Part shown: one piece after another, positions 15,101 through 64,000 of the stretch
How the letters are laid out: each line of letters opens with the position of its first letter
Position numbering within the stretch: position 1 is the stretch's first letter
The notes under the pieces: generated by a model
Database searches by the model: none
Told to the model about the DNA's origin: nothing
What the model saw: only the letters and a program-made list of their open reading frames with translations
Assembly (NCBI GenBank): GCA_029931535.1
Contig: JAQPZY010001244.1
Location: 854,501 to 918,500, forward strand
DNA: 64,000 nt
Reading direction: 5' to 3'
Origin: Margaritifera margaritifera
Taxonomy: Eukaryota > Mollusca > Bivalvia > Unionida > Margaritiferidae
Position numbers and translations under genes: made by a program

Positions 15101-15518
15101 TATGGCTGTAAAGAGAGTTGTATATGGCTATAAAGAGAGTTGTATATGGCTGTAAAGAAAGTTGTATATGGCTGTAAAGAGAGTTTTATATGGCTATCAA
15201 GAGAGTTGCATATGGCTATAAAGAGAGTTGTATATTGATATATAGAGAGAGTTGTATATGGTTATATAAAGAGAGTTGTATATGGCTATAAAGAGAGTTG
15301 TATATGGCTGTAAAGAGAGTTGTATGTGGCTGTAGAGAGAGTTGTATAAGGTGGTATAAAGAGATTGTATATGGTTATATAAAGAGAGTTTTTTATGCCT
15401 GTAAAGAGAGTGTTATATGGCTATAAAGAGAGTTGTATATGGTTATATAAAGAGAGTTTTATATGGCTGTAAAGAGAGTTTTATATGGTTATATAAAGAG
15501 AGTTTTATATGGCTGTAA
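9165..15518. repeat. 6.35 kb minisatellite with higher-order structure
   Basis: About 300 tandem copies of a 19-23 bp unit of the type 'tatatggctgtaaagagagt', alternating with a longer variant containing 'ggttatataaag'. Rare variant units recur in the same order, so there is a higher-order repeat. The 'ggctgcagaaagagttgtg' variant lies at about 10446, 11780, 13004 and 14474 (spacings 1334, 1224, 1470). The 'gttgtacatggatata' variant lies at 9481, 10815 and 12039 (spacings 1334, 1224). The ends are abrupt, at 'tatggctgtaacgagag' and 'ggctgtaaagagaacattt'. Identical 61-codon frames at 10638-10823 and 11862-12047 are by-products of the period. Confidence 0.95.
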
Positions 15519-16129
15519 AGAGAACATTTATTGATGCTTTAGAGTTTCATTGTTGTTTTCTAGCAATATTTAATGGGTCAGAGAATTTGTTTATTTGAAT
15601 TCCATGATTCCCTGCTTTGATTTAGTTATACGGTAGTTGTGTTTACATTTCTTGGAGACAAGCATATTAAGTTTATACGGTAGGTCAATCAGTTTGAGCT
15701 GAACTTTGAGAGTTCGTGCTGATCATGCAAGCCAAAGCTTTGAACCTATAGCGTCTTTTTTACATGTGCAAGTATATTGTCCACATCTCCATAAAAGGGG
15801 TATATTGTTTCAGAACGCTAATTCGTACAGACTATGGGTGAGATCATTCATTTTCATTCTTGTATGGAATGTTTTTTATTCTTTTAATTTCCTTGCAAAT
15901 TTTCAGGTTCGTGAGTATGTTCTTTTGTTTTGTATGATACTATAAATAAATAATACCGAATTGAAAATGATGTAAGTATTTCTTTTAGTAAGGATTTTAT
16001 AATCGTAAGATTTGTAGAAGCAAAGGGCGAAAGTCCCAAAGATGCTTTGTGAAAAGAACAATAAGATGTTTATCAGTTTATGGGTCAATCTCTAACAATA
16101 TAAACAATGATAAATTCACAGAAATAATT
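15519..16129. other. No gene seen
   Basis: AT-rich single-copy-looking DNA between the minisatellite and the decayed polymerase. A 79-codon frame at 15706-15945 shows no motif and is not convincing. Confidence 0.5.
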
Positions 16130-49281: not shown

Positions 49282-49689
49282 GTTAAAAGTTGTTGGGAAA
49301 TTAACTTTTGGACAGCAAGGATCCGACTCGGATGAAACCACAATCCGATTTCTGAAATATATTTCCGATTCAAAAGTTAGACTAAACTACACTGTTGTGG
49401 TGGTGACATATGCTTATTGTTGAGTTATATGGTCATGAAAACGAAAACATTTTTTTTTTTTTTGTTCTTTTTTTTTTTTGTTCTACAACAACAACAACAG
49501 CTGCAAAGGATCACTACACTAATTAAGTTCATAAGTTATATGTTCAGATGCACCAACAATATTACGTATGTTAGGCTCTAACTTAGACATAATATATTAA
49601 AAATTCAGCATTGGGTATGTGTCATTTTCTGGAAATAGTTCCACTTGGAAGAAACAACTGGAATTTTTAGTGTAAGTGACCTTAGTAGT

Positions 49690-49890
49690 ATAGGGTGGGT
49701 ATCGAGGTACTGGGTGGCACTTGGGGTACCAACGGGAATTTAACATAGCGGGTGGCACTTGGGGTACCAACGGGAATTTAACATTGGGGCCTATCGGGGT
49801 ACCAACGGGAATGGAACATGGCGGGGGCACTTGGGGTACTAACGGAAATTTAGCATTAGGGGTACTTGGGGTACCAACGGAAAAAAAAAT
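49690..49890. repeat. GGGGTACCAACGG-type tandem repeat
   Basis: Five imperfect units of about 30-50 bp, each with 'cttggggtaccaacgg' or a close form (one has 'ggggtactaacgg') followed by 'gaatttaacat'-like text. It lies immediately beyond the last gene of the virus-like element. It produces proline-rich frames on the minus strand (49597-49902) that are probably not genes. Confidence 0.75.
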
Positions 49891-49916
49891 GGAACATGGC
49901 AATCATGGAAAATTAA

Positions 49917-49952
49917 TCTTTTCTTGAAAAATGGGTGGCCCTGAAAAGGGCC
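49917..49952 (-). terminator. Histone-type mRNA 3' end (stem-loop plus U7-like element), gene 1
   Basis: On the minus strand the stem-loop GGCCCTTTTCAGGGCC (49937-49952; 6-bp stem, TTTC loop) is followed directly by ACCCA. After exactly 10 nt comes CAAGAAAAGA (49926-49917), matching the purine-rich histone downstream element. The stop codon of the gene lies 13 nt upstream of the stem. Sequence, order and spacing are those of replication-dependent histone pre-mRNAs. Confidence 0.8.
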
Positions 49953-49964
49953 ATTGGAGGAGGA

Positions 49965-50558
49965 TTACTTTTTCCTCCAACATTGAGTGAAGAAGCCTAG
50001 GAAGGTGGTGTGAGATTTTTTCTTCTTCTGGAGTGGTGGTGAATTGGGCAGCCAGTCGGGATGTTCCATACGTCTGAACTTATCCTGGATTTTCATCCAG
50101 ATTAAATTCAGGCGTTGAAATTCCTTTTCTTTCCTGGCTTGCTCCTTTTGACTTCGTTCCAGAGCCCACAAGATCTTAATGTGGGCTACTTCTTGCTCCA
50201 AAACTTTTTTTAATAATAATTTTGTCGTGTGAAGATTTATCTATTCACGCCTGACGCTACTGGCGGGTGGATAGATTAAACAATCTTCCTTCACTTGGTG
50301 TAGGAAGTATTCCACCCCATCCAGTAAGTCGAGGGCCGACTTGATAAAACCCACACGACAAGGAGCCGAAGAATTCTTTTGCGATTCCTCCAAGAAGACA
50401 TTCTTCACCAGCCTCCTCGCTGAAGTGAGAGCCGCTAGTTGGCTTGTGACGTATGGCTTTGTGGCAGGATATCTCCACCAACACTCCAACCTTTCCACCA
50501 AAGATTCCACACCCACCATGATATCCCAGGCTTCCTGCAATAGCTCTACCGTGTTCAT
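49965..50558 (-). CDS. Small helical protein 1, interrupted by in-frame TAG
   Basis: Unrecognised. From the ATG at 50558 the frame runs 105 codons to a TAG at 50241-50243 and then stays open in the same frame to a TAA at 49965, so the whole is a 198-codon unit with one amber codon. There is no ATG soon after the amber. The first half has MNTVELLQEAW and GVESLVERLECWW helices. The second half is charged and coiled-coil-like (ALERSQKEQARKEKEFQRL) and ends in a Lys-rich tail. The histone-like 3' signal lies 13 nt beyond the second stop, not the first, which argues that the full unit was the original gene. Its own TATA promoter is at 50602. Nonsense mutation is more likely than programmed readthrough. 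Confidence 0.55.
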
Positions 50559-50601
50559 TGTATCAGAGTGAAAGTATGAATGCTGCGACTGCGGAAGGCG
50601 T

Positions 50602-50640
50602 CGCTTTATATGCTAGAAGAGCGGACGTGAAGGAAAACAT
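50602..50640 (-). promoter_or_regulatory. TATA promoter with shared upstream box, gene 1
   Basis: On minus, GCATATAAAGCG lies about 45 nt before the ATG at 50558. It is preceded by CGTCCGCTCTTCTA and, further upstream, GGGATGTTTTCCTTCA. The same string of elements precedes the next two genes (51237, 52192). Confidence 0.65.
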
Positions 50641-50867
50641 CCCTTTTTCCAAAACATAATTTTTTTCATCAAACATACAAACAAAACACACACCACACCA
50701 TCCTTTTTTATTTTTTTATTTTTTTAATCAAACACACTCTATACAAACACACTCTACAAACACATACCAGGGAATGTGACTAATTTTGTTTTGGAGCGGG
50801 GAAAAAACAAACACACTCTATACAAACACACAAACATACAAACACCTATGGCAATTATGAAAATTAA
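50640..50867. other. Spacer, AT-rich with 'acacaccacacc' repeats
   Basis: No gene. A low-complexity spacer of T-runs and 'caaacacacaccac' strings, of the same kind as 51283-51640 and 52240-52500. Confidence 0.6.
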
Positions 50868-50903
50868 TCTTTTCTTGATTAATGAGTGGCCCTGAAAAGG
50901 GCC
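50868..50903 (-). terminator. Histone-type mRNA 3' end, gene 2
   Basis: Minus-strand stem-loop GGCCCTTTTCAGGGCC (50888-50903) followed by ACTCA. The purine-rich CAAGAAAAGA (50877-50868) again starts 10 nt after the stem. The stop codon of gene 2 is 23 nt upstream of the stem. Confidence 0.8.
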
Positions 50904-50926
50904 GTTTGGTTTTGTTTAGAGTTCAT

Positions 50927-51196
50927 CTAGAGGTGCGGGCACCTCCCTGGCTTGGCCCGACAAGCGTGACAGCTCCCCCTCCATGTGGCTGCACTCATGC
51001 AGCGCTTGGAGCTGTTATCCAGGATAAACGGAGGATGGGTCGCTTCAGACTCCCAATTTTCCTCCATCATCAGGTGGGGTCTGATGGCTACTTTCTTCTC
51101 CTGTTCCTCCTTCTCCCTTTTCTCCACTTCGTGGAGCAGGTGCCACGCCACCTCTAAATGTACTCTAATTTGCCGAATGATTTCGATCTTGTTCAT
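50927..51196 (-). CDS. Small helical protein 2
   Basis: Unrecognised 89-residue protein. ATG at 51196, about 45 nt after a TATA-like box; TAG at 50927. The N-terminal two thirds is a predicted amphipathic helix (MNKIEIIRQIRVHLEVAW then EVEKREKEEQEKK). The C-terminal part contains three Cys (CMS, CHAC) and basic residues. The helical part loosely resembles the second half of protein 1 (hydrophobic-Trp-Ala-Leu followed by a Glu/Lys run), suggesting but not proving paralogy. It sits in the middle of three cassettes that share promoter and 3' end. The product might act in DNA packaging or regulation; no function can be assigned. Confidence 0.6.
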   Translation of the reverse strand: MNKIEIIRQIRVHLEVAWHLLHEVEKREKEEQEKKVAIRPHLMMEENWESEATHPPFILDNSSKRCMSAATWRGSCHACRAKPGRCPHL

Positions 51197-51236
51197 TTTG
51201 ACAAGTGAACGGGGTAGCTCTATCGGGGAAGGTGTT

Positions 51237-51280
51237 GTTTTAATATACTAGAAGCGCGGACGTGAAGGAAAACATCCCTT
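51237..51280 (-). promoter_or_regulatory. TATA-like promoter with shared upstream box, gene 2
   Basis: On minus, GTATATTAAAAC lies about 43 nt before the ATG at 51196. It is preceded by CGTCCGCGCTTCTA and GGGATGTTTTCCTTCA, nearly identical to the box before gene 1. Confidence 0.65.
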
Positions 51281-51316
51281 TCCAAACAAAAAAACATTAC
51301 TCACACTACCCGCGTC

Positions 51317-51324
51317 TGACGTCA
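51317..51324. promoter_or_regulatory. Palindromic CRE/ATF-type site
   Basis: A perfect TGACGTCA lies about 75 bp upstream of the gene 2 TATA-like box (minus orientation), in a short GC-richer island in otherwise low-complexity spacer. Binding is inferred from sequence only; an 8-mer can occur by chance. Confidence 0.35.
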
Positions 51325-51640
51325 TCCCTATGACACAGACCCAGTGCGCGGACCTAAAAGAAATAACTTTTGATAAAAAAAACACATACACACACCCTAC
51401 ATACAAAATTTTTTATTTTTATATTTTTTTATCAAACACACACCACACCACACTTTTTTTATTTTTTATTTTATTTTTATCAAACACACCACACCATTTA
51501 TTTTTATTTTTTTTATCAAACACACACCACACTATCTATACAAACATTATTTTTTGGGAAAAGGGATTTTTGTTTGGTGGGTAAAACACAAACATACACA
51601 CATACAAACACAAAAAAAATTTTGTTAAGGCAATCGAAGA
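51325..51640. other. Spacer, T-rich with 'acacaccacacc' repeats
   Basis: No gene. Repetitive 'tttttatttttat' and 'caaacacacaccaca' strings. Confidence 0.6.
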
Positions 51641-51647
51641 GTAGTTA

Positions 51648-51683
51648 TCTTTTCTAGAGATCTGGGTGGCCCTGAAAAGGACC
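51648..51683 (-). terminator. Histone-type mRNA 3' end, gene 3
   Basis: Minus-strand stem-loop GGTCCTTTTCAGGGCC (51668-51683; one U-G pair keeps the 6-bp stem) followed by ACCCA. CTAGAAAAGA (51657-51648) begins exactly 10 nt after the stem. The sequence is diverged from the other two while the stem pairing and spacing are kept. Confidence 0.75.
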
Positions 51684-51704
51684 GTTAGGGTTAAGAAGTT
51701 ATGT

Positions 51705-52129
51705 TTAACTTCTAGTTGCGGCAGCAGTATCGGTAGCGGCAGCCGCAGCAGGGCGGCCACGTTTTAGCCACAGGTCTCGTGGCTGCTGATGGATAAGCTC
51801 TAAAAGGCAAACTCATCGCAATCTATCTTACTGCTGACTTCTCTGTCGGGTACTTTCATCGACTGCAAGAGTTGGAGCTGCTGCTGTTGTTGTTGTTGTT
51901 GTTGTTGTTGTCTTTGCTGCTGCTGCTGTTGCTGCTGCAGTCTTTGTCTCTCCTCCCATTCCGTTCTGTCCCTGATGATTTCTTCTCTTATAACTTCTTC
52001 CACCATATCATGAGCCATTTGTAGGAAGATCATTGTCTTTCTCTCAGGGTTGGTCTCCATCAAATGATGCTTCACCCTCTGCATATTCACCATTGCGTCG
52101 TTCAGTTTGCTTATCTTGGCTGCTGCCAT
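51705..52129 (-). CDS. Small helical protein 3 with polyglutamine, probable frameshift
   Basis: Unrecognised. The best start is the ATG at 52129 (MAAAKISKLNDAMVNMQRV); the frame also runs upstream to 52186 without an ATG. Charged helices are followed by a long Gln tract (CAG/CAA repeats, about 51875-51950). The frame stops at a TAG at 51800-51802. In the -1 frame, coding-like sequence (LIHQQPRDLWLKRGRP then an Ala-rich run) continues to a TAA at 51705. That second stop is 21 nt from the histone-like stem, like genes 1 and 2 (13 and 23 nt), whereas the first stop is 116 nt away. A one-base indel at the T-run near 51800 is the simplest explanation; frameshifting is possible. TATA box about 65 nt upstream. 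Confidence 0.5.
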
Positions 52130-52191
52130 CTTCTTGAAGTGTTGTTGAGATCTTGACGAGTCAACGAGAGTGACTATACTGGCCAACGCAC

Positions 52192-52233
52192 CGCTTTATA
52201 TGCTAGAAGCGCGGACGCGATGGAATACATGGG
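52192..52233 (-). promoter_or_regulatory. TATA promoter with shared upstream box, gene 3
   Basis: On minus, GCATATAAAGCGG is preceded by CGTCCGCGCTTCTA, as before genes 1 and 2; the further upstream part is more diverged here. Confidence 0.65.
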
Positions 52234-52239
52234 GTTCAG

Positions 52240-52500
52240 ATCGAGAGTGAGAAATGGATAGAGGGGGTGACTTCAGATCGATAGAAAGAGATAGAGAGAG
52301 CCTATTCATTTTGTTTTTCAAATTTCAATAAAAAACCACACAACACCATTTTTTTTTTCAAAAAATCAACATTTTTTAATGAACAACAAGAAGCTTCTTT
52401 AAACATAAAAATTCAAACTAACAATCAACAAGATATTAAACAGGAACGCATTTACAGGGTTGACAACGTTGGGAAGGCAAACTAAACTTCCACTTTTCTA
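52240..52500. other. Spacer between protease and small-gene cassettes
   Basis: Low-complexity AT-rich DNA. On minus, an ATTAAA (52375-52380) about 125 nt after the protease stop could be a variant poly(A) signal. Nothing else recognised. Confidence 0.4.
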
Positions 52501-52503
52501 CAT

Positions 52504-53568
52504 CTACATCATTCTGATGCACACAACGTTCTGAGCTAAAGACAAGAGATAACCATAACGTTCACAAAACCATCGTTCTACTTTAGCAACGTTTCGAGCA
52601 TAGTCTCTATCAAAAGAAGTCATTAAATGTTCTAAGGGATATCCGAGACTGCGTTGATGAAGAAAATGTACACAATATTGTCCACACACCATTGAATCCG
52701 ATCCTTGTAATCGAACATTTTTGAATCGAGTAGAGACGGCATTTCTTCTCATAAAGTCGATGATGTCGTCTTCCAAAGGAGGTAATCCATAAGAATCAAA
52801 ATATTCCACACCGCCATTGTGATCGTTGGGAAAGTACACAGCTACCCAATGGGTTCCTGGTCGATGACTGTCGTCGGTATTGATGACATAGGCATGAACG
52901 TCTTTAGGTTTGCGATGAGGTAGTTCATCTTTAGCACACACCACAGGATTCCAAGAAGAAGTGTAGGAACTGACGTCAACAGGTAATGAAGTTCCCTGGT
53001 ATCCATTTTTTCACAGGTAATAATGAGTCATCAAGTTACACTTGACTGTAAACTTGAATTGATCTGTCAAGTAATTCCACGAATTCTCACGGCGGATAGT
53101 TTCTGTACTCTGTTGAATGAGAGCTTCGATGCGTTTGATCTCCAGAGGAGTGAGTGGAGGTGAAGAAGAATCCTGCAAGTCTTTATACCATTTTTTCAAC
53201 ACCTTTTCTTCCGAGATCTGAGACCAAGCGTCCTCCAAAAATTCATCCATTCTTTCTTCGGCTGTCATCATCAAACATTTGTCGTGTTGTTTTTGGCTGG
53301 GATGATCGATTTGACATCCATGACAATGTTCTCGGGGCAGGGTGTTCATTCTTTCAATCAATTCCTGCACATAACAGGAAACTAAATGTTTTTCTTGTTC
53401 TGGCCATCGAGAAATAAATCCAGAAAACTGGGGAACAGTATTGTTTTCTTCTTCTTTTTTAGGTTCTGAATGAATGACTTCGTCATCATCATCAGTGGTA
53501 GTTTGTGACTGCTGAACTTCACAAAATCCCTCGTCTATTTCCATAGGTTCTTCTTCTTCGTGTTGCAT
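52504..53568 (-). pseudogene. Adenain-like cysteine protease, in-frame TGA
   Basis: Maturation protease of adenovirus-type (C5/Ulp1-like fold) that would cleave capsid precursors. The catalytic region is in the 52504-52944 part: His in GTHWVAVYF, acidic residue in EYFDSYG, and Cys in VCGQYCVHFLHQ. The 186-codon upstream part (ATG at 53568) is acidic, with an MEID/EEEE-rich start and a possible Cys/His cluster (CHGCQIDH). Both parts are in one frame, separated only by a TGA at 53011-53013, so I treat them as one gene of about 354 codons. The catalytic half has no ATG near its beginning. Alternatively the upstream part is a separate protein. Gap to the capsid gene upstream is 14 nt. Confidence 0.78.
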
Positions 53569-53582
53569 CTTTTTTTTTTCTT

Positions 53583-54926
53583 CTAATAGTCTAGAATCAC
53601 TTCTCTCAAATTGTTGATCTCTAGAGTATTATCAAATTCTGCATACAAGACGACGTTCACCGTGTCGGGTAGAGGATCTTTAAACTGAAGTTCCACACGA
53701 AGTGGGCCTGATTTTATAGGGTGGAAATGTCCTTCGTCGCTGCCTTGGTCAGGAGTGAAATCAAATCCCCACAATGCATATCCTCCTACATAATCCTCGT
53801 ATGAAATGCCGTGGCTGCTGTTGGTGCCTAACTGTCCTGTGGCTTCAAACAGACTCAAGTAAGATCGCAAGTAATTTTTCTGGCCAAAGTCAGGTTCGAA
53901 AGGTCTGGTACACAATGCCTTGCCATCTCGACTGACTTCTATCTTGGAGACGTTGTAGTGATGAAAGTTGAACGGATTCTGATTTGGGGTTCCGTTGAGG
54001 GCTGCATTACTAACGATGCTGTCCTTGGAAGACGTGATCTTCGACTTTGGATCGGAGTCCCGTGGCAATGGTAAACGTTTTCACTTCCACTCGTCGCACA
54101 GGATACTTGGCAGTGGTTCTGCTCAACGTTTGACTGATGTCGTTGGCTACTTTTGGTAAGACTTCTACACATCGCACGTAAAGTCTGGCTTCTTGGATGA
54201 CGGTTTTCCACTCGGAGGCATTGACACCAGGAACCATCAAATGGAAAGCGGCACAACTTCGATTCAGTCTCAGGCGTACATCTATTCCATTCAACAAATA
54301 CTTGTCTTGCAACCACATGTCCAAATGCAAACGATCCATCAGTTCTAAACTGCGTCTGATTTTCTTTCGGCGGTCGTTAAATCCCACATTGTGTGGGACT
54401 GCAGGAATTATATTTAGTACCATTAACACCATCCTCAGTAGACTTCGCCGCTACTGACAAGTCTGTCTCGTTGAACTTTTCCGCAGTGTCAGGTTTCCAG
54501 ACCACCGAAGCATCCAGATGAGTGTTCTTGGCTTCTTTTCCGTACGTCAAGAGATTTTCCAAGTAGGCACGGTAAGGGTAAGTATCCAAACTACTGCTGA
54601 CTAGTTTGTTATTCAAGTACAAATCTACTTCGCTGAACAAAAAAATGCGTGTAATTATTGACGGGTGCCACTCGGTCACCGTCCCCAGGAAGGGTGCTGT
54701 CCGCCGTTTTGATCACTTTGAGTTTCAGATACAAGTAACTGTTATTCAGATCGATGTAATCTTCGGTTTGTCCTTTGATTTCAAATTCGATAGGAGCTGA
54801 ATCCGTCAAAGACGATACAGGATGAAATTCCACCCATTGGGATTCTTGCATCGTCATCATGGTAGGAGGCATGCTAAACATATCCAGTTCTGACTTGGTA
54901 CATTCGCAAGAATCTCGGTGCATCAT
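53583..54926 (-). pseudogene. Major capsid protein (double jelly-roll, F54H12.2-like), frameshifted
   Basis: Polinton major capsid protein, which would form the pseudo-hexagonal virion shell. The family signature (a PVSSLTDSAPIEFEI-type start, a TYPYRAYLENLL segment, an NPFNFHHY segment, a terminal DTVNVVLYAEFDN segment) is spread over four overlapping frames: 54609-54926, 54377-54679, 54010-54432 and 53583-54068. Breaks are near 54640 (a T-run on minus, likely one extra base), near 54405 (one base), and near 54015-54030 (frame change with probable small deletion). The start is taken as the ATG at 54926. Length of about 445 codons fits the family. Breaks are described only; this copy cannot make a full protein as read. 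Confidence 0.88.
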
Positions 54927-54937
54927 TTTCAAAGGTT

Positions 54938-55384
54938 TTAGTAATCAAACACGTCTAATTCTCTGACGGTTCTTCGTTTCTTATTCTTTTTTGGAACACC
55001 ACCGTGTGTTTTATGAACTCTGAAGGGGTGTCGACGTCGTCTCTTTCTACCTTGTCCTTGCTGTGGAGTGGAGGAAGAAGTAATGCCAGGTCCAGAAGCG
55101 TGAAGCGAATTTATAGCACTCTCTCGGAGACCTAAAAGATCTTTGCCAGTGTTCATCAACACATTTTTGCCTGCTCTCATAAAGGCTTCTTTGGGATTTT
55201 GTTTGTCGATGAGGACATTTTGCAAAAATTCTTTTCCTTGTGTCAAAGCGGCATCTTTTAAGGCATGGAATCCTCGAGTCACCATCGGTTTCAAAATAGG
55301 GGCTACAGTCCGAAAAGCCGATCTTAACATATCTCCTAAACCATGTCCTCGTTGTCGAGCCACTCCTCGGTACACAGGATACAT
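54938..55384 (-). CDS. Basic virion-core-like protein (pX-like)
   Basis: Intact 148-residue frame, ATG at 55384. The N-terminal part has a GHGLGDMLRSAF motif followed by an amphipathic helical region. The C-terminus is strongly basic (GRKRRRRHPFRVHK, then KKNKKRR), as in small nucleic-acid-binding or core proteins encoded between the capsid and penton genes in adintovirus/Polinton genomes. It lies 11 nt before the capsid ATG and 6 nt after the penton stop. Role inferred from position and charge; homology to adenovirus core or pVI proteins is not demonstrable by eye. Confidence 0.65.
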   Translation of the reverse strand: MYPVYRGVARQRGHGLGDMLRSAFRTVAPILKPMVTRGFHALKDAALTQGKEFLQNVLIDKQNPKEAFMRAGKNVLMNTGKDLLGLRESAINSLHASGPGITSSSTPQQGQGRKRRRRHPFRVHKTHGGVPKKNKKRRTVRELDVFDY

Positions 55385-55390
55385 TTTTGG

Positions 55391-56282
55391 TTACAATGCG
55401 TTGGAGAACCTTTTTCGAAAATGTAGTTTCACCGCGACTTTTCCTTGGTCAATGAATGGCACACTTTGTCCCAAATCTCCTTTTATACTAATGTTGACAC
55501 TGTCAAAATACGATTTACTGACTGGAAGATAATGAGGGTGTACAAATTCACGGTGAACGTGATACGTGTTTCCACCACCTTCTTCGTTCGCATCAGCGCC
55601 AGAATCCAGTTTGAAAGGAAGGACTCTCAGTAAGGGCGCGGCTGTGTGTCCCACCACGTTGTACTCCACCACATCGGAGTACACAAACATTATATTCAGT
55701 CCAGTGTTCAATTCGATAGGGGTTTTAAAAGCATCTCCGAATTCTACGTTGCTTTTGATTTTTCGAATAGCATACAATTTATTTCCACCCAAAATAGCAT
55801 ACAGCCCAGGAGAAAATTCGATGGTTAAGGGTTTTTTCTCCTCCACGGGTAAACCTTTGTCCCATTTTTGGGCACTGTTTAAGGCTTTGCCAAATTGGGC
55901 TGTGAACTTGTCCGCAATCGTCTCCACCAAATGTTGAGCACTAAAATAATACCCCTTATCAATTCTCATGGTATACTGCGACAAGACAGAAAATTTAGGA
56001 TCTACTACCCTTTTCTTTGATTCCCACATTTTAGGATTATTTTTTTCCAACTCATCTTGCATTTTTGGGTTCAAGATTTCCACGACGAAAGTGTTTTGAC
56101 CTTCGTTGATGTTCATGATTTGCGTAGGATGAATGATTTCTACCAAACCCACTTCCCAATGAGCTTCGTGATCCAATTGGATAGCCTGAGGTAATTTGGC
56201 CGTGAAAAAAACATAAGGCGTTGTTGGGAAACACATCCATAGAACTGTCACTGGGTAAAGTTAAATAAAATTGGTCATTCAT
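55391..56282 (-). pseudogene. Penton/minor capsid-like protein (PY type), one frameshift
   Basis: Predicted single-jelly-roll minor capsid protein of Polintons, which would occupy the vertices. The main frame spans 55391-56251 with the WEVGLVEIIHPTQ signature. The true N-terminus (MNDQFYLTLPSDSSMDVFP) is in another frame from the ATG at 56282, so one base is gained or lost near 56205-56220. The ATG overlaps the stop of the upstream membrane gene as ATGA. Length of about 297 codons. Confidence 0.75.
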
Positions 56283-56713
56283 AGTAGGTCCAAAGTTGTT
56301 TTGGCGCTTGAGGAGTCACTCGAGTTCAAAGGATGTTCAAAGGGTTTCAAAAGAGGACTGGTATTATGGTGACTGGAAGAAGGTGGACTGGCGTTGGTCG
56401 TACTACCGTGGTGTTGGCTGCTGTTGTTGCGGTGACTGTTGTCCGTCGTCGTAAATTTCAAAGAGGGACTGGGTAAAAGATAACCGATGCAACTGCTGAG
56501 TAAAATGGTCCACAATTGTTTGCCTCCTTGTTGCAAACTCAGATTGGCAATAGCTGCTCCGATGACACAATACACTACAAAAATTTGGCAGAAAAAGACG
56601 ATTTGATTTTTAGGCACACATTCTCCGCACCACACCCAGAGCGGTTGTTTTTGTAATTCTTGAAGAGAAGAACTCTGCGAAGGAGTCGAGGTCGTGGTTG
56701 TGTTGAATGGCAT
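56279..56713 (-). CDS. Small two-helix membrane protein
   Basis: Intact 144-residue frame, ATG at 56713. A Cys pair (WCGEC) precedes a first hydrophobic helix (VFFCQIFVVYCVIGAAIANL). A second follows (LWTILLSSCIGYLLPSPS). Then comes a Ser/Thr/Asn/His-rich C-terminal tail. The same two-helix pattern with a GYLLPSP-type end is found next to the penton gene in many animal Polinton-like elements. Function unknown; a role in virion membrane or capsid assembly is only a guess. Ends with an ATGA overlap into the penton gene. Confidence 0.75.
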   Translation of the reverse strand: MPFNTTTTSTPSQSSSLQELQKQPLWVWCGECVPKNQIVFFCQIFVVYCVIGAAIANLSLQQGGKQLWTILLSSCIGYLLPSPSLKFTTTDNSHRNNSSQHHGSTTNASPPSSSHHNTSPLLKPFEHPLNSSDSSSAKTTLDLL

Positions 56714-56719
56714 GTTAGG

Positions 56720-57802
56720 TTACTTCTTTTTCTTTTTATAGTCGACGACTTGAGAAGCAGCAATCCAAGAATCAAAACTAGGAGGATATCCTTTCAAACG
56801 TACTTTGACTTCTTCTACTCGATGTTTGCCTACTTTGCGTGTTCTTTGTTCGAGAATGCTTTCGATGTCGTACAAAGCGTCTTCTTTTTTGGTCACTCGT
56901 TGTAACTCAGGCAAGTAAAATGTTCCTTTGAGCACTTCACCGTGCATGTCTTCCAATTTATAGACGGGAGGATCGCGTCCACGGACGGGTGTAGTGACAC
57001 GAAACAATTCGGTGGTCCAGTTGGGTAAATAACCTTTGTCAAAAGTGCGTTTGGTTTTTCCGATGCGAACCCAATCTCCCTTCTTCAACTCCAGCAAGGT
57101 TTTCTTTTGAGGTGGTCTCCTCTGGGGTGTACCAAACAATCGATCAAACACGGTCACTTCGTTTTCAGGGCTGACCTCTTCGGGGGCACATCCGATGCTT
57201 CGATGGTACGATTGATTGTACGCTTTGACCAAACGTGGTAACACGTCGATGTACTTGAGAGTGTGTTGATGTGTAAAATATTTCCACATGCGTTCTTTCA
57301 AAGTTCTTTGAAAACGTTCCACGATACTGGCTTTGGTTTCAGGATTTTAGGTGGTAAAAAAATGAATGTGTCTTTGTTTCAATTCTTTTTGAAAAGCTTG
57401 GTTTAGAAATTCGGTGCCTTTGTCGGTTTGCCATCGTAAAGGGTGACGACCACTTTGTTTCAAGACCAATTTTAAGGCACGTACCAATTCGGTACTGCTT
57501 TTAGAAGTCAAAGGCACGACCCAAGCAAATTTGGAAAACACGTCGATGACACAAAACACAAACACAAAACAAATATTTGTGACCACTATTGTAGGTTGCC
57601 AAATGAGAGACGTCGGCTAAATCGGCTTGCCATTGATGATCGATGCCTTCCACTTGGGTTGGACTTCTAGAAATTTTTCGTCGAATGGGTTTTTGTAACG
57701 CTCGATATAATTTTTTGTGGCAGCTCGATATAATTTTTGAACTCCTCCGTAACCAGCAGCATGGCCAGGATTGTAATAAAGGCTGGCTAAAAGTTTCTCC
57801 AT
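56720..57802 (-). pseudogene. Retroviral-type integrase with chromodomain, broken
   Basis: DDE integrase that would insert the element. N-terminal piece from the ATG at 57802 (MEKLLASLYYNPGH), core pieces at 57501-57824 and 57347-57586 (first Asp in IDVFSKFAWVVPLTS, second Asp in WQTDKGTEF), then 56720-57322 with the catalytic Glu region (ERFQRTLKERMW), an SH3-like domain and a C-terminal chromodomain (YDIESILEQR to SWIAASQV). Breaks: frame changes near 57715 and near 57560, and an in-frame TAA at 57347-57349. Gap of 6 nt to the membrane gene. Confidence 0.88.
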
Positions 57803-57808
57803 GATTCC

Positions 57809-58882
57809 TCAATAAGTCAACCACTGTTCGATGCTACTACTTTGAGTGTCGTGAGGTTTGGACGAAGTGGCTTGACGCGTTCGACGAGCCACAGGAGAGG
57901 GTAGTGAAGAAGGGGTGATGGTAGGTTTCTTCTTGGTGGTGTCTTTTTTCACTTCAGTCTTGCTGTCTTTCTTTTTTTCTTCTGCTGAAGAAGGAGTGGA
58001 CATCTTCTTTTTAACCCAAGCTTTCATGGCTTCTCGATGAGGGGTAGGAGAGGGTGTCAACAAGGAAGCTGCAATATGACTAGGTATGCCAGCAGACAGA
58101 GTTTGAAACACTTCTCGGGGCTAGTCTTCTTCTGTCATCCCCGTGGCGGTGTCTGTTTTAGTGGTGGTGGTAACTTTAGGTTCGCTTTTCATCAGGGTTT
58201 TGAAATCTCTCAGAGTGGGTGGAGCTGTTTCGTCTACAGCTTTTTGGTGAAAGAGTTGCAGACGTTGTAAAAGTTGACCGTACCGTTGCGATTTTTCTGT
58301 TTCTGACAAATCGCTTCGTTCCATCAGCGTTTGTAATTCTTGTTGTAACTGTGACATCTCGTTGAGATTAGGATTGGGTGGTAAATGAGGTATCCGTTGT
58401 TCGTTCCAACGATGGAATCCCATCCATCGTTTGTAAGGTACTAAAGTCAGTTTTCGTCCTTCCATTTCATCCAAAGGTACACTCCTAAAAGTGGTCCAGC
58501 AATCGTTCCTAACAAATCGAGCCGCTATTTTTAACAACGGTCCTAACAGCATAGGTAGAAATCCTCCTCGTTGCACCAACATTTTTTTCTTTTGCTGGAG
58601 AGGTATTTTCTTTTTCACCATTTGGCGAAGAACGTTCCGATGTTTGCCTAATTTATGTTTCTGTATCTTGGACAAAGGTACCGTTGCTTTCAAGACGTTC
58701 AAACAACATTCACACACGGTATCGATGATTTCTTTAGGGGCTGTTTGAATGAGTTGTTTTCGCATGGGAGGATTGGACTTGGTCAGGACAGACAAGACGT
58801 CCCAATGTTTCGCCAGACGAGGTGGAAGTCCTTTTTTGCTTTTCGTCTTTTTTTGGTGGTGGTGTGCACGTTTGGGGGTCAT
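57809..58882 (-). pseudogene. Basic hydrophobic-end protein, in-frame TAG
   Basis: No named function. From the ATG at 58882 (MTPKRAHHHQKKTKSKKG) a basic N-terminal region contains a Cys motif (VCECCLNVL) and a lysine-rich part leading to RGGFLPMLLGPLL, a pattern recurrent in animal Polinton-like elements. It continues into a helical region (LQQELQTLMERSDLSETEKS). The frame meets a TAG at 58121-58123 and is then open to 57809, with another basic Ser/Thr/Lys-rich section. It may be two or three originally separate proteins fused. The start is one nucleotide after the stop of the upstream gene (TAAGATG). Confidence 0.55.
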
Positions 58883-58883
58883 C

Positions 58884-59813
58884 TTATACTGGAACACTTC
58901 TCCACTGATTGTCTGCACGACGTACCATCTTCATCACAGGCCTCACCTGACGTTGAGGTTTTTTCAATGGACTAAATCGTCTCAATTCTTCTTTGGATAA
59001 ATCCACTAAACTTTGTAACACGCCGGTTCTCTCTTGGACTTTGGTTTTAGGGGACGGTACTTTGTTCGCGGCCGCTGCCATGGCTAGATCAGCCGAAGTG
59101 GAGGGTCCCGAAGTGGTGACTTTCGAAATGGGTTTCCATTTTTGCATCAAATTAGGAAACACTTGTCTTAAGTCCGGTTTGGCAGGCATCATCATGAAGG
59201 GAGGTGAAGAAGATGAAGAAGTGGACGCAAGAGGAGAAGGAGACCTCGTCACTGCTGGCTGTCGTGGTTGTGTCTTGCGGGTGTACGTTTGCGTCCTGGC
59301 AGCAGTACCTCTCTTGCGGGTGCCAGTGGTGGTGGTGGTGGTGGTGGGTGTTTTCTTCTTCTTGGCAGAACTTTTCTTTTTCTTGGGGGCTTTCTTCTTT
59401 GTAGGGCTTTTCTTTTTTGTTGTTTTCTTTTTGGGACTTTTCTTCTTTTTCGGTGTTTTGGGTTTTTTGGCTTGGGCATTAGGATCCCATTTTAAAAGGG
59501 AACGAATCATGACCCCTCCTAAAGAACCGCTCCCTCCAGGGGTTAAAATGATTTGTTTTTTAGTCCGTGGATCGATTCTAGGATCGGCTAGTTGTGACAA
59601 CGCCCCTTTATGTTTTTGAAAAAAAAGTTGAGTTTGATGAGGGATGTGAATGATGCCTTGCAGCAATTGACGTGCCGTCAAAGTAAACCATCGTAACACT
59701 TCTTTAAGACTAGCTTCTAACAAATGAGCACGGACTTGTGCATTTTTTTCGCGACTGATGCCATACAAGGCACGAATCAATTTGGCCGAAGGATGAGCTT
59801 GAAAGGAAGTCAT
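58884..59813 (-). CDS. Lysine-rich, histone-H1-tail-like protein
   Basis: Intact frame of 309 codons from the ATG at 59813 (the frame also extends to 59918 without an ATG). A helical N-terminal region (residues 1-110; SREKNAQVRAHLLEAS, LTARQLLQGI) is followed by GGSGSLGGVMIRSLLKW. Next comes a run of KKKKSPKKKTTKKK-type repeats (about residues 115-165), with SP/TP sites like an H1 or protamine-like tail, then a Thr/Pro/Ser-rich section. It probably binds and condenses DNA in the virion or nucleus. The N-terminal part resembles in layout the neighbouring 57809-58882 protein (helix, basic run, Gly-rich hydrophobic block), so the two may be paralogues. Neighbour of the packaging ATPase. Confidence 0.65.
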   Translation of the reverse strand: MTSFQAHPSAKLIRALYGISREKNAQVRAHLLEASLKEVLRWFTLTARQLLQGIIHIPHQTQLFFQKHKGALSQLADPRIDPRTKKQIILTPGGSGSLGGVMIRSLLKWDPNAQAKKPKTPKKKKSPKKKTTKKKSPTKKKAPKKKKSSAKKKKTPTTTTTTTGTRKRGTAARTQTYTRKTQPRQPAVTRSPSPLASTSSSSSPPFMMMPAKPDLRQVFPNLMQKWKPISKVTTSGPSTSADLAMAAAANKVPSPKTKVQERTGVLQSLVDLSKEELRRFSPLKKPQRQVRPVMKMVRRADNQWRSVPV

Positions 59814-59863
59814 CTCGAAGACTTGAGACAGAAATGACGCGGTAGATGTTTCTATAGTTTTTT

Positions 59864-60601
59864 TTAGAGAGTGGCTGAAGGGGACGTGTAAATGACAGGA
59901 CCTCCTTCTTGGCACCAATGGTGAAACAATTGGGTACGAAATCTCAAATAGTCGGGAGTGGTCGGTTTTAAGTCAATGAGTAAATACGCATGAGGTGTTT
60001 GAGTGGCATCGTCGTACGCATAATTCAGCCAAGGAGTGCCTAACTGTTTGGCTAACACTTGCACTCGAGATTTGTCTCTGGGGCTTTTAAACAACACCAC
60101 GTAATGAGCGTTGAGACTGATGGATCAATGGGCTTTACTTTGTTGAAATAAATTTTGAGTAATGTAAATGATGCTGGCATTTCGATGGTGTCCTTTTCGT
60201 GTAAACCAAAGTTTCATTTCTTCTTCGTCTTCTCCTAACATGTCGTCGAAGATGACCAGATGTGTTTGACTCACGTCAGACACGATCCCATCGTCTTCGC
60301 GAGGAATGCCTTCTACAAATGAAATGGCTTCTCCTTGACTTTCACGAAGTAAAGTGTAAGACGGTTGCCACTCTTTGTAACACCACACGATGCGTTGAGG
60401 TGGACGATCAAACAGATGAGATTTGTGTTCGATCAAACGTTTTACAAATTCGGTTTTGTCTGAACCACTCGGTCCCGCAATCATCATGTTAAATGGATGG
60501 CGCAGATACAAAGCTTCCCAACTTTGACGATCTAACTTTTCGTCAATCACTTTGACCACAGAGGAAGTAGAAGAGGCAGACGAGGCAGAAGATGTTGCCA
60601 T
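59864..60601 (-). pseudogene. Genome-packaging ATPase (FtsK-HerA/A32 type), Walker A altered
   Basis: NTP-driven DNA packaging motor. ATG at 60601 follows a TATA box (60649-60655). Walker A reads GPSGSDKTEF; the conserved second Gly before Lys is Asp (codon 60458-60460), expected to abolish nucleotide binding. Walker B is THLVIFDDML. The ITQN polar motif follows at about residue 152. A TGA at 60125-60127 sits where the frame otherwise continues to 59864, so the C-terminal 87 codons are cut off. A CGA-to-TGA change is plausible from context. Length of about 246 codons matches small A32-like ATPases. Confidence 0.87.
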
Positions 60602-60648
60602 GACTGAGGTAGGAAGATTTTTGAGAACAAGACAAAAGACCCAAGACA

Positions 60649-60655
60649 TTTTATA
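60649..60655 (-). promoter_or_regulatory. TATA box before packaging ATPase
   Basis: On minus TATAAAA lies about 47 nt before the ATPase ATG, spacing like that of the three small-gene promoters but without their shared upstream box. Confidence 0.45.
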
Positions 60656-60668
60656 CATTTCAAACACG

Positions 60669-60674
60669 TTTATT
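60669..60674 (-). terminator. Poly(A) signal AATAAA
   Basis: On minus AATAAA lies 33 nt after the stop of the 60708-61022 gene, next to an A/T-rich run. It would end the block of transcripts running from the polymerase side, just before the ATPase promoter. Confidence 0.5.
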
Positions 60675-60707
60675 TTTTTTTTTTAAAAACAAACAAAAAA
60701 CATTTTT

Positions 60708-61022
60708 TTACAAGTCATGAAGGACAAAAATGCATACCGCAAAAATGGTCAGGTACAAGATTAAGGCTACCACTAAAAGAATTAAAGTTCTGTATAAACA
60801 AGTCAATGTAAAACAAGAACAAAACACTGTCCTAGGAATGGAAGGCACAGGCACTGGTGGTAGTATTCTTCTGCTCGTCTTTGTTCTGGTGGTGGTGGTA
60901 GAATGAAATGTCTCTGACGGTAAGGAGGGGGTGTGTTCCTCAGGGGGTTGTATTTGGACGACGACGACGGTGTGGTCTTTCTCTGCTTTGTCAGGTTCTT
61001 CCAGGATTGTTTCTAAGGTCAT
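60708..61022 (-). CDS. Small single-helix (tail-anchored-type) membrane protein
   Basis: Intact 104-residue frame, ATG at 61022. A polar, Pro/Thr/Glu-rich N-terminal two thirds is followed near the C-terminus by one long hydrophobic helix (LILLVVALILYLTIFAVCIF) and a three-residue tail. Cys residues precede the helix (CSCFTLTC). No homologue recognised. Orientation with a cytosolic N-terminus is likely. Confidence 0.6.
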   Translation of the reverse strand: MTLETILEEPDKAEKDHTVVVVQIQPPEEHTPSLPSETFHSTTTTRTKTSRRILPPVPVPSIPRTVFCSCFTLTCLYRTLILLVVALILYLTIFAVCIFVLHDL

Positions 61023-61104
61023 TTTTTTTTTACTTGGATTTCAAGTGGTTCACTTTTGGAAACTTAGTGACATGCCAGATCTTTGGCAAACTGGGCCACT
61101 TCAT

Positions 61105-61329
61105 TTAGCCAAGCATCGAAACCAATTTTCTCCAGTCACGTACATCTTTCCAAGCGTAAAGTTGTTGGTGTAACTCACTAGCACTACACACTTCTTGAAA
61201 CGTATGAAGGGTAGATAAAGTTTGAGTAATGTCTTCTGCACACGGAGGTACCCCACTCGTCTTCATCACCACTCTCAACACTTTGAGTACAATTTGTCTT
61301 TTGTGTAACGATAAAGCATGAATGGTCAT
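61105..61329 (-). CDS. Small protein related to F-box-like family, part 2
   Basis: The frame extends to 61404, but the ATG at 61329 overlaps the stop of the previous gene as ATGA, so that start is preferred (74 codons: MTIHALSLHKRQIVLKVLRV). The C-terminal segment (LHQQLYAWKDVRDWRKLVSML) loosely resembles the 'IPW..EV' modules of its neighbours. No function assignable. Confidence 0.45.
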   Translation of the reverse strand: MTIHALSLHKRQIVLKVLRVVMKTSGVPPCAEDITQTLSTLHTFQEVCSASELHQQLYAWKDVRDWRKLVSMLG

Positions 61330-61607
61330 GTTTTTGTTTTTTGATGGTTCATCAAAATAGTCCAAAACAACCACGGGTCCTCCAAAATAATCCAAGACAA
61401 ACACTGGTCCTCAAAAATACTCCACAACGAATGTCCTGGAAAACGAAATCCAAGAAAGGTAGTCACTAAGACACACACCGCATAGCGTCCAAAATTCAAT
61501 GGAAACAGTTCTTGTATCAAGTGTTTATAATCCTCTAAGGTCTGAACACGATCGTTGACTTCCTTCCACGGAATACGTTTCACGAGTGAAGACCACAGTC
61601 CTGGCAT
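61326..61607 (-). CDS. Small protein with 'IPW..V' module
   Basis: 93-codon frame, ATG at 61607. Its middle (KRIPWKEVNDRVQTLEDYKH) is clearly similar to a segment (HKIPWNEVEETTNLQEYQKR) in the 61617-62564 protein, so the two share a module. The C-terminal third is encoded by three 28-bp tandem DNA repeats (about 61350-61430; Asp/Glu-Pro-Trp-like pattern) and may be a later expansion that displaced the original end. Confidence 0.5.
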   Translation of the reverse strand: MPGLWSSLVKRIPWKEVNDRVQTLEDYKHLIQELFPLNFGRYAVCVLVTTFLGFRFPGHSLWSIFEDQCLSWIILEDPWLFWTILMNHQKTKT

Positions 61608-61616
61608 GGTGAGATT

Positions 61617-62564
61617 TTATATGGTGAGATTCCCAGGGTGGGTATCTTTTTGTGGTGGGTTTTTATATCCAGGTTCCCAAGGTTGGTATCTTTTGTGATA
61701 GTCTTCTCCAAGGTGCCAGCGATAGGATCTTCCCAAAATCAGTCTTCTCATGCTTTGGAAGTAAGCATAGTTTACAGATCGAGGAATGACTTTGAGTTTG
61801 CGTTTCACTTGTATTTGGACCAACTCTTGGTAAATACGTTCTTGCAGCTCCAAAGGCAAACCACGAATGTGTTCTGGTAAGGTTTCCGACTTGGAAAGAA
61901 GTAACTCTCTTTTGTTTTCTTCACGATAGCTGTGATAAAAAAAAAAGTTTCTCCTCAGAATCAGGATTCTGATACGGTGGAAGTCGCGGTAGTGCGCAAA
62001 TCGAGGAATGAATTTGAGTTTGCGTTTCACTTGGATCTGGACAAACTCTCTGTAAATGCGTTCTCGCAGCTTCGAAGGCAAATCACTAATACGCTCTTCT
62101 AAGCTAGTCTTCTTGGTGACAAAATAGTCATACACTTGCCAAATGCCATCGGTGGGTAAAGGTTTTCCAAGATGTTCAGTGAGGACCCTACTACACGTCA
62201 GACGACGTAAAGGCGTTTCATCTTGAAGTGACACTTCTTGTAAACGTTTTTGGTATTCTTGTAAGTTGGTTGTTTCCTCCACTTCGTTCCATGGAATTTT
62301 GTGTATCACTCCCACATGGTCGGTGGTGCCATCCAATTCCTTACCAGACCAATTTCTTATTTGATCAATGTCTGACCATTTGAATATTTTCAAAGCAATT
62401 AAACTTCTTATAGCATTCAGATACCACTGGTTAAATTGTTTGTGTCGTAAAGGATGTAACTGTTCTTTACGTTTCACTTGTATCTGAATCCATTCTCTGT
62501 AAATGCGTTCTCGCAACTCCAAAGGCAAACCACGAATGTACCATTGTAAAGTATCATCCGACAT
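61617..62564 (-). CDS. F-box-like triple-repeat protein
   Basis: Intact 315-codon frame from the ATG at 62564, one base after the TAA of the BIR gene; an ATG at 62591 inside that gene is possible but less likely. Three copies of a motif of the form LPxELRERIYxExxQIQVKRK occur near residues 9-33, 181-205 and 254-279, with an IPWNEV module between the first two. The LPxEL..RIY core resembles the start of F-box motifs, which bind Skp1 in ubiquitin ligases; this is inference from a short pattern. Internal duplication and two small relatives downstream show a locally expanding family. Not known to me in other Polintons. Confidence 0.6.
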   Translation of the reverse strand: MSDDTLQWYIRGLPLELRERIYREWIQIQVKRKEQLHPLRHKQFNQWYLNAIRSLIALKIFKWSDIDQIRNWSGKELDGTTDHVGVIHKIPWNEVEETTNLQEYQKRLQEVSLQDETPLRRLTCSRVLTEHLGKPLPTDGIWQVYDYFVTKKTSLEERISDLPSKLRERIYREFVQIQVKRKLKFIPRFAHYRDFHRIRILILRRNFFFYHSYREENKRELLLSKSETLPEHIRGLPLELQERIYQELVQIQVKRKLKVIPRSVNYAYFQSMRRLILGRSYRWHLGEDYHKRYQPWEPGYKNPPQKDTHPGNLTI

Positions 62565-62565
62565 G

Positions 62566-63141
62566 TTACTTCTTCTTGTCATCTGGCTCATCGTACCCGT
62601 ACTCTTCTAAGGCCACTAAAGGTAAGAACTGACAGTGCGGAGACCATCTGGCATGTTCAATGTAAGCTGAGTCGGTAGGCTCCCATTGGTGAAGTCTCAC
62701 ACCGCAACTGAAACACTGAACTTTATCTCCTTCTCCCAAGTAGATAAATCCAGATCTGGCTAAAGCTTTGGCAGTAGTTGCTTGTAGTAGATATTTAGGC
62801 CACTTGTCTTGGAACGTCTGGAGTCGCCTTTCAAACTTGGAATAACCAGGCAAAACCACAGGTATCGTCAATTCTTTACTCCTGTAGGAATGACATTCAT
62901 GTGTACGTTTAATAAAGAGTAAAGGTAGTCCTGCATCGTTAGAGGGACGGTGAGGCACACGCACAGCATCGCTGATGTCAAAGCGTACGGCATCCGTCTC
63001 ATCGTGTGAATCGCTGATGCCAAAGCGTACGGAATCCGTCTCCTCGCATGGCACTGCATCGCACTCCAAATCGTGATGGCACTTGGAGTTCACACTAGAT
63101 TTCTCCCTTGGTGGGTTGGTGGGATGAGTATTCTTATTCAT
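62566..63141 (-). CDS. BIR-domain (IAP-like) protein
   Basis: Intact 191-codon frame, ATG at 63141, 4 nt after the polymerase stop. The C-terminal half is one BIR domain: FERRLQTF..WP at the start, then ALARSGFIYLGEGDKVQCF, the zinc ligands CFSC and, after W, HARWSPHC. No RING finger follows. The N-terminal half is polar, with a short tandem repeat (ETDSVRFGISD / ETDAVRFDISDA). BIR proteins of the IAP family restrain caspases or related host responses, so a role in keeping infected cells alive is likely by family but unproven. Confidence 0.85.
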   Translation of the reverse strand: MNKNTHPTNPPREKSSVNSKCHHDLECDAVPCEETDSVRFGISDSHDETDAVRFDISDAVRVPHRPSNDAGLPLLFIKRTHECHSYRSKELTIPVVLPGYSKFERRLQTFQDKWPKYLLQATTAKALARSGFIYLGEGDKVQCFSCGVRLHQWEPTDSAYIEHARWSPHCQFLPLVALEEYGYDEPDDKKK

Positions 63142-63145
63142 CTTT

Positions 63146-64000
63146 CTAGGTTGACGTCTGTATTTGCAATGAATGGTTAGGTTTGGAAGTGGTCCCTTTT
63201 TTATATTGAAGATTGGCGTGTCCGTAAGGCAAATTGGTGTGGTCTGGAAGTCTCACTCGTTTCTGGTACACGATTTGGTACACTTTTTGTAAAGGGCGAC
63301 TGACAATTTGATGATTAGGTAACCGTACGATCTTGTGAGGTTCTAACGTTTGCACTCGAAAGTCTTCCACTTGTCCAGACAGCAAAGCATTTTTCAAAAC
63401 CTCAAAATTGACCACTTGACTTGTTCGATAGTTTAGGGTTAATCCTTTGACTTTACATGGGGTGTGAAGTTGTCCTTGCGGGTCTCGGTATCGGTAGCCG
63501 TAATTTTTAGGGCCACCGCTGGCAAAACTCAAATGGTGTCTTGAGGGTGCTCGTCCGTCCAGGCTCCTAAACGATCTCCTTTGATGGTAGGGTGTGGGTA
63601 ACCGGGGCGATGAATGTAGATACAACTGTCAGTGTCAAAGAACAGGACACGATCTCCCAAGACTTCTAAAGCTTCGTCGTGCAATTTCAAGCGAGCATGA
63701 GCTGTCGCGTAGGCGGCAATGACTACGTTGCTAAACTTGTCAGGTTTTACAAACTTGGGTTCTTCTTCGAAATTGACTAAGATCAAATCCTCACGGACGA
63801 TTTCGACGTGTTTGACTAGTATACTTTTGTCGTCCACCAGTTGAAAGTAGCGATAAGAATCGGTCACGTATTCCGTCTTGGTTAAGATGGGTCGTTGGGC
63901 CATTTTTCCCCACAAACAATTGAGCATGACTTTGGCAAACGATCTTTTTCCTTCATTCTTTTCCACGTCTTCCAAAGTGATGCCTTCGACGTCACGGTAC
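63146..64000 (-). pseudogene. DNA polymerase B (C-terminal part), cut by window, frameshifted
   Basis: Replicative protein-primed family B polymerase of the element. The upstream frame 63529-63975 holds motif B (AKVMLNCLWGKMAQR) and motif C (FFDTDSCIY), both intact. The C-terminal frame 63146-63625 is in another phase, so a one-base-type break lies between about 63530 and 63625. The N-terminal exonuclease and TPR regions are beyond the window. Much better preserved than the two polymerase relics at 16-19 and 28-31 kb, and from a different lineage by its motif sequences. Confidence 0.88.

Follow-up and report, generated by a model that had tools for sequence, protein, structure and literature searches.

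Histone-type 3' end signals at the terminal genes of a Polinton/Maverick element in Margaritifera margaritifera

Results and discussion

The element and its genes

The window analyzed here, a stretch of 64,000 nucleotides of Margaritifera margaritifera DNA, contains the left part of a Polinton/Maverick element that begins at position 49684, runs past the end of the window and finishes at L073:5555 (C191:924004), giving a total length of 19,821 bp (Table 1). The other end of the element is carried by the sequence L073 (C191:918450-928340), which lies outside the window. Both ends are formed by terminal inverted repeats (TIRs) of the type AGTAGT...ACTACT, and the same 6-bp TSD, GACCTT, is found on both sides. 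The Polinton hallmark genes for polymerase B, rve integrase and A32-type ATPase all score above their Pfam cut-offs but are present in pieces. The window copy has both its integrase and its MCP-like region in pieces, and its polymerase frame ends earlier than in the copy L072; the MCP is a putative assignment based on its position. The order p59-p58-INT-p56.3-minor capsid-p54.9-MCP-p53-protease-gene 3-gene 2 is identical in all six copies compared (9.9 kb each), and gene 1 is present in four of the six within the stretch read. The TIRs and TSD, together with this fixed gene order, agree with the earlier note on this DNA, which had attributed the genes described below to a Polinton. No relatives turned up among viral contigs when these were searched with the capsid, ATPase, polymerase and MCP pieces, nor among genome contigs with the capsid alignment, and six proteins compared with PHROGs gave no match.

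Two further genes were observed. A BIR (inhibitor of apoptosis) gene adjoins the Polinton polymerase, and a gene containing repeats of the RGLPLELRERIY type lies at 61617-62591, with a similar gene in L070 and L072.

Table 1 Position and basis of the features annotated in the window.
Feature	Position	Strand	Basis
Polinton/Maverick, left part	49684..64000	-	TIR, AGTAGT...ACTACT ends, TSD GACCTT
Left TIR	49684..49957	.	97% over 247 columns, inverted, vs L073 5244-5489
Gene 1 HDE CAAGAAAAGA	49917..49926	-	comparison of three units
Gene 1 stem-loop	49937..49952	-	RF00032 42.6 bits
Gene 1, ATG ORF 105 aa, one in-frame stop, frame open beyond it	50241..50558	-	
Gene 1 core promoter with TATA box	50604..50627	-	motif search
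ATTAAA, 159 nt past gene 2 stem	50723..50728	-	possible back-up or true poly(A) signal
Gene 2 HDE CAAGAAAAGA	50868..50877	-	comparison of three units
Gene 2 stem-loop	50888..50903	-	RF00032 41.2 bits
Gene 2, intact ORF 89 aa	50927..51196	-	
Gene 2 core promoter	51239..51262	-	motif search, 3 mismatches
AATAAA, 159 nt past gene 3 stem	51503..51508	-	possible back-up or true poly(A) signal
Gene 3 HDE CTAGAAAAGA	51648..51657	-	comparison of three units
Gene 3 stem-loop, one U-G pair	51668..51683	-	RF00032 31.2 bits, cut-off 34
Gene 3, ATG ORF 109 aa, glutamine-rich	51800..52129	-	homologs in L013, L017 and 6 copies
Gene 3 core promoter with TATA box	52194..52217	-	motif search
Adenovirus-type protease, weak	52504..52944	-	Peptidase_C5 16.5 bits, below cut-off 21.3
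Probable minor capsid protein	55391..56236	-	28 homologs; weak viral fold matches, low-confidence model
Integrase chromodomain-like C-terminal piece, other frame	56720-57346		Chromo 22.3, below 25.1
Integrase core piece	57347..57616	-	rve 41.7 bits, cut-off 32.6
A32-type packaging ATPase	60125..60667	-	Pox_A32 30.3 bits, cut-off 22.8
BIR-domain protein	62566..63141	-	BIR 83.4 bits, cut-off 22.9
DNA polymerase B piece, runs off window	63529..63999	-	DNA_pol_B_2 27.7 bits, cut-off 25.8

Three units with histone-type stem-loops

Genes 1, 2 and 3 are each followed by a stem-loop of the histone type on the minus strand. These stem-loops, proposed in the earlier note, are real both on reading of the sequence and in a cmscan search with RF00032, whose cut-off of 34 bits is exceeded by two of the three, the gene 3 stem falling just below it (Table 1). 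Beyond these three, RF00032 finds nothing else in the 64-kb window at E<=0.01. The stem-loop pattern GGYYCTTTTCAGRRCCAC likewise occurs three times in the 64 kb, as compared with no occurrence in 100 dinucleotide shuffles. All three units have the loop UUUC, ACYCA after the stem and a purine element (HDE) that starts exactly 10 nt past the stem, as had been claimed; it takes the form CAAGAAAAGA in genes 1 and 2 and CTAGAAAAGA in gene 3. The stem of gene 3 shows the noted base change that keeps the pairing, a C-G pair being replaced by U-G.

When the three units are compared column by column, 15 of the 16 positions of the stem-loop, 4 of 5 in ACCCA and 9 of 10 in the HDE are invariant, while the spacer between stem and HDE retains 1 invariant position in 5 and the upstream stretch 1 in 25. 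The intergenic stretches of the units are related (69% over 226 nt), so that part of their likeness may reflect shared descent. RNA folding gives a 6-bp hairpin in all three, with one extra pair in gene 1; the gene 3 stretch folds no better than its shuffles (38 of 200 were as good). An ATTGCC motif was also seen about 20 nt past the HDE at all three 3' ends of the window (49890-49912, 50842-50860 and 51620-51640) and in many copies.

Each unit has its own promoter. The motif CGTCCGCGCTTCTAGCATATAAAG, with at most 3 mismatches allowed, occurs exactly three times in the window, once per unit, and is absent from 100 shuffles. The named ORF begins at the first ATG after the TATA box, 49-71 nt away, in each unit, and in dinucleotide shuffles the first ATG rarely opens an equally long ORF (4/2000 for gene 3, 15/2000 for gene 2 and 12/2000 for gene 1). 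The codon-usage test was weak, and gene 2 did not score highest in its own frame. The distance between stop codon and stem, put at 13-23 nt in the earlier note with extended frames for genes 1 and 3, holds for gene 2 as the sequence stands (23 nt), whereas the ATG ORF of gene 1 falls 288 nt short of its stem and that of gene 3 falls 116 nt short. The extended frame of gene 1 is backed by long-frame relatives of gene 1 or gene 1-prime (see below), whose stop lies 16-17 nt ahead of the stem at 8 of 30 loci; that of gene 3 was not confirmed.

Pfam assigns no histone family to genes 1-3, in agreement with the view that these stem-loop genes are not histones, and no family at all to genes 1 and 2. 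Comparison of the gene 1 and gene 2 proteins with 5.8 billion proteins revealed no relatives at E<=1; consequently their conservation is seen within one genome only. A PDB sequence search returned nothing for gene 1 and three weak matches for gene 2 (best E 0.48). The fold predicted for the gene 1 ORF from the single sequence (pLDDT 73.5) consists of helices only and had no PDB match at E<=0.001. The proteins of genes 1, 2 and 3 show no significant similarity to one another; even in the best comparison, 54 of 1000 shuffles scored as high.

Position of the signals in the element

Stem-loop signals are confined to the terminal genes of the element. A scan of the six copies on both strands, with at most 2 mismatches, detected stem-loops only after genes 3, 2 and 1. 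In the gene-order comparison of these copies the pattern that flags the HDE ignores the CTAGAAAAGA form, and the flag is absent at three gene-3 stems. All three consecutive genes noticed at the outset carry the signal, but it is not restricted to them, and others were found beyond the window, towards the opposite end of the element. The right ends of the copies L070-L072, which were picked from the RF00032 matches, contain polymerase- and BIR-like genes (recognized by eye), followed by gene 1-prime, which shares 37-40% identity with gene 1 and has a stem-loop on either side. Gene X, read in L072, ends ahead of the first stem-loop near gene 1-prime. In the window's own element, homology to gene X precedes the stem-loop of the right TIR, and a further stem-loop with CTAGAAAAGA lies at L073:4131 on the inward-reading strand, downstream of a short ORF (4755-4495).

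The inner end of the left TIR consists of the gene 1 stem-loop and HDE, and the right TIR has a copy with one stem mismatch. Since the outermost stem-loop is located inside the TIR, each end of the element bears the signal for its outward-reading gene. The stem-loop genes of the right end are separated from the polymerase side by a small gene encoding repeated CCHC zinc knuckles (CYICQEKGHWAPECPQ; L072:6067-6474, L070 and L073:3451-3891).

Copies in the genome and conservation of the signals

We ran RF00032 on the 2.45-Gb genome and obtained at least 75 matches above the cut-off; these are the matches scored among 508,685 candidates, and the window's own two above-cut-off stems are not among them. 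The 14 control genomes gave a single match, which is under the cut-off. We read 38 of the 75 loci (the 30 best and 8 chosen from the other 45), and all 38 sit at genes of this element family. By a strict rule, 29 of the 30 best follow a gene homologous to gene 1, gene 1-prime, gene 2 or gene X; the remaining one, L017, is at a gene-2 homolog, and the 8 chosen loci are all at the same genes. No H2A, H2B, H3 or H4 gene was found at the 38 loci.

Gene 2 has at least 150 copies in the genome with 75-100% identity. This number corresponds to the copies scored among 2,824, one of which is the window itself; 131 of the 150, counted from the table, are without internal stop, and the best 30 were read. 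Among these 30, which include the window's own copy, 24 stems match the pattern, 5 are one base off and 1 is without the 5' arm. The HDE core AAGNAA is found in 29 of the 30 and the exact CAAGAAAAGA in 25, and the promoter core TTCTAGNATAT in 26. The copies retain stop codon, stem and HDE as a set. Frames were usable in 25 of the 30 copies, and the 295 of 300 pairs that passed the dS filter have a median dN/dS of 0.14, none reaching 1, which indicates that gene 2 is under purifying selection.

The mean majority share per column in the gene 2 copies is 0.963 for the HDE, 0.935 for the stem-loop, 0.917 for the coding sequence and 0.807 for the spacer; in the flanks it is 0.75 between stop and stem, 0.719 at 65-150 nt downstream and 0.844 at 150-300 nt downstream. 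The stem-loop columns are therefore only a little more conserved than the coding columns, which counts against the reading of these stem-loops as signals for host SLBP/U7 processing that we favor below.

Two stem variants account for the 30 best loci, GGCUCUUUUAAGAGCC in 22 and GGCCCUUUUCAGGGCC in 8; the change from C-G to U-A in the stem goes with a change from C to A in the loop, and both forms are RF00032-like. In an alignment of 52 rows (A3, 41 of them distinct), whose rows were selected by stem-like patterns or RF00032 matches so that paired stems are favored, 95.5% of the cells pair, as compared with 6.5-61.4% when the partners are slid by 1 to 3 columns. One stem pair is altered on both sides, in 3 distinct rows, a cell count reached by 2 of 500 shuffles, although 226 of 500 shuffles match the number of pairs so altered, which is thus not unusual. 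This compensatory change lends modest support and may be a single event. In all, both stem-loop and HDE are kept across many copies.

A candidate histone-type processing of element transcripts

In the known pathway the hairpin is bound by SLBP, the HDE is paired by U7 and CPSF73 cuts between the two (PMC7026596). The HDE core of the element, AAAAGA, resembles the AAAGAG purine core of that pathway (PMC7026596). The terminal accessory genes form separate transcription units of one design, in which a TATA promoter common to all precedes a short ORF that has no visible introns and is followed by stem-loop and HDE. Most likely, host SLBP would bind the stem-loop, host U7 snRNP would pair with CAAGAAAAGA and CPSF73 would cut after ACYCA, yielding mRNAs without poly(A). 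We consider it likely, judging from these sequence features, that the Polinton uses host SLBP/U7 processing for its terminal accessory genes, and we infer that their mRNAs would be without poly(A) and their expression tied to host DNA replication. A search for U7 snRNA found none among 65 scored of 776,085 candidates, and the controls were also silent.

It could instead be that the genes are polyadenylated at the downstream AATAAA and ATTAAA hexamers and that the stem-loop is only an SLBP-binding element acting in stability or translation. The hexamers past the gene 2 and gene 3 stems (Table 1), with GT-rich DNA after them, would fit such a use. However, the HDE, which only U7 cleavage requires, belongs to the best conserved stretches, gene 1 has no poly(A) hexamer within 2.3 kb, and downstream poly(A) signals are also described for histone genes (PMC1924863), which makes this alternative unlikely in our opinion. 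We see only a slim chance that the signal is a relic, that is, a captured histone 3' end that duplication or gene conversion passed on among the units and that is now functionless. The relatedness of the intergenic stretches may explain part of the identity, and copies within one genome are akin, but stem and HDE persist while the spacer between them varies, one compensatory change is seen in the stem, and the signal is kept beside a gene under purifying selection.

The location of the outermost stem-loop within the TIR also raises the idea that the hairpin works as DNA, as a replication or integration signal of the terminal repeat, and not as RNA. We hold this to be highly improbable, as genes 2 and 3 have their stem-loops in the interior of the element, and both orientation and distance follow the stop of each gene. 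That the cassettes are host genes which happen to adjoin a Polinton, as the missing Pfam family of genes 1 and 2 might suggest, has a virtually negligible likelihood: they lie within the TIRs and TSD and occupy the same place beside the protease in six out of six copies, and for the window copy a host-gene origin is refuted by TIR, TSD and copies. Host SLBP/U7 processing thus remains our preferred reading, and it suggests that a virus-like mobile element borrows the tail-less S-phase mRNA pathway of the cell.

In a wider form, which we think somewhat likelier to be right than wrong, this element family would represent endogenous DNA viruses that express a class of genes at both ends as histone-type mRNAs lacking poly(A), through host SLBP and U7, tied either to S phase or to the SLBP-rich egg or embryo stages, and that would thereby provide a large set of non-histone clients.

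Comparison with known systems

The 3' ends described here resemble those of replication-dependent histone genes (RF00032) in the 6-bp stem, the UUUC or UUUA loop, ACYCA, the purine HDE at a fixed distance, the short 3' UTR and the possible poly(A) signals further down, but differ in that the genes are non-histone and belong to a mobile element. A 2007 paper describes replication-dependent histone genes as the only genes known to have mRNAs lacking a poly(A) tail (PMC1924863). The element itself shares with Polintons/Mavericks polB, rve integrase, A32 ATPase, putative capsid genes, (AGT)2-ended TIRs and 6-bp target duplications, the last two being also reported for vertebrate Mavericks (PMC8097293). 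A histone-type 3' end is not among the features that we found described for Polintons; the main text of PMC8097293 contains none of the words "stem-loop", "polyadenylation" and "histone". Histone-like proteins (Histoid; PMC11071296) occur in adomaviruses and related viruses, another case in which animal DNA viruses borrow histone biology; there it is the protein that is borrowed, whereas here it would be an RNA signal, and no core histone was found beside the signals read. In the open-licence literature we found no paper joining Polinton, transposable element or virus genes with the histone stem-loop or SLBP, though one in print is still possible.

Viral contigs were also screened. The patterns GGCYCTTTTCAGRGCCAC and GGYYCTTTTMAGRRCCACYCA had 0 matches each, and a looser pattern of stem plus HDE matched 3 contigs, in which the hairpin lies beside a bacterial-type tmRNA and was for this reason taken to be a terminator.

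If the proposed processing is true, a DNA virus would have a new means of keeping step with the cell cycle of its host, and the element would offer a large natural set of non-histone SLBP/U7 substrates. Such processing would also call for caution with poly(A)-selected RNA-seq, in which such transcripts would be missed.

Other features of the window

The host flank of the element contains two Toll-like-receptor type genes (LRR plus TIR) at 4425-6824 and 22163-24538, the second of which is split over several ORFs. We also observed a tandem array of 6.3 kb at 9171-15523, built from about 281 copies of a 22-bp unit, and a reverse transcriptase fragment at 42227-42703 (RVT_1 29.9 bits, cut-off 29.6).
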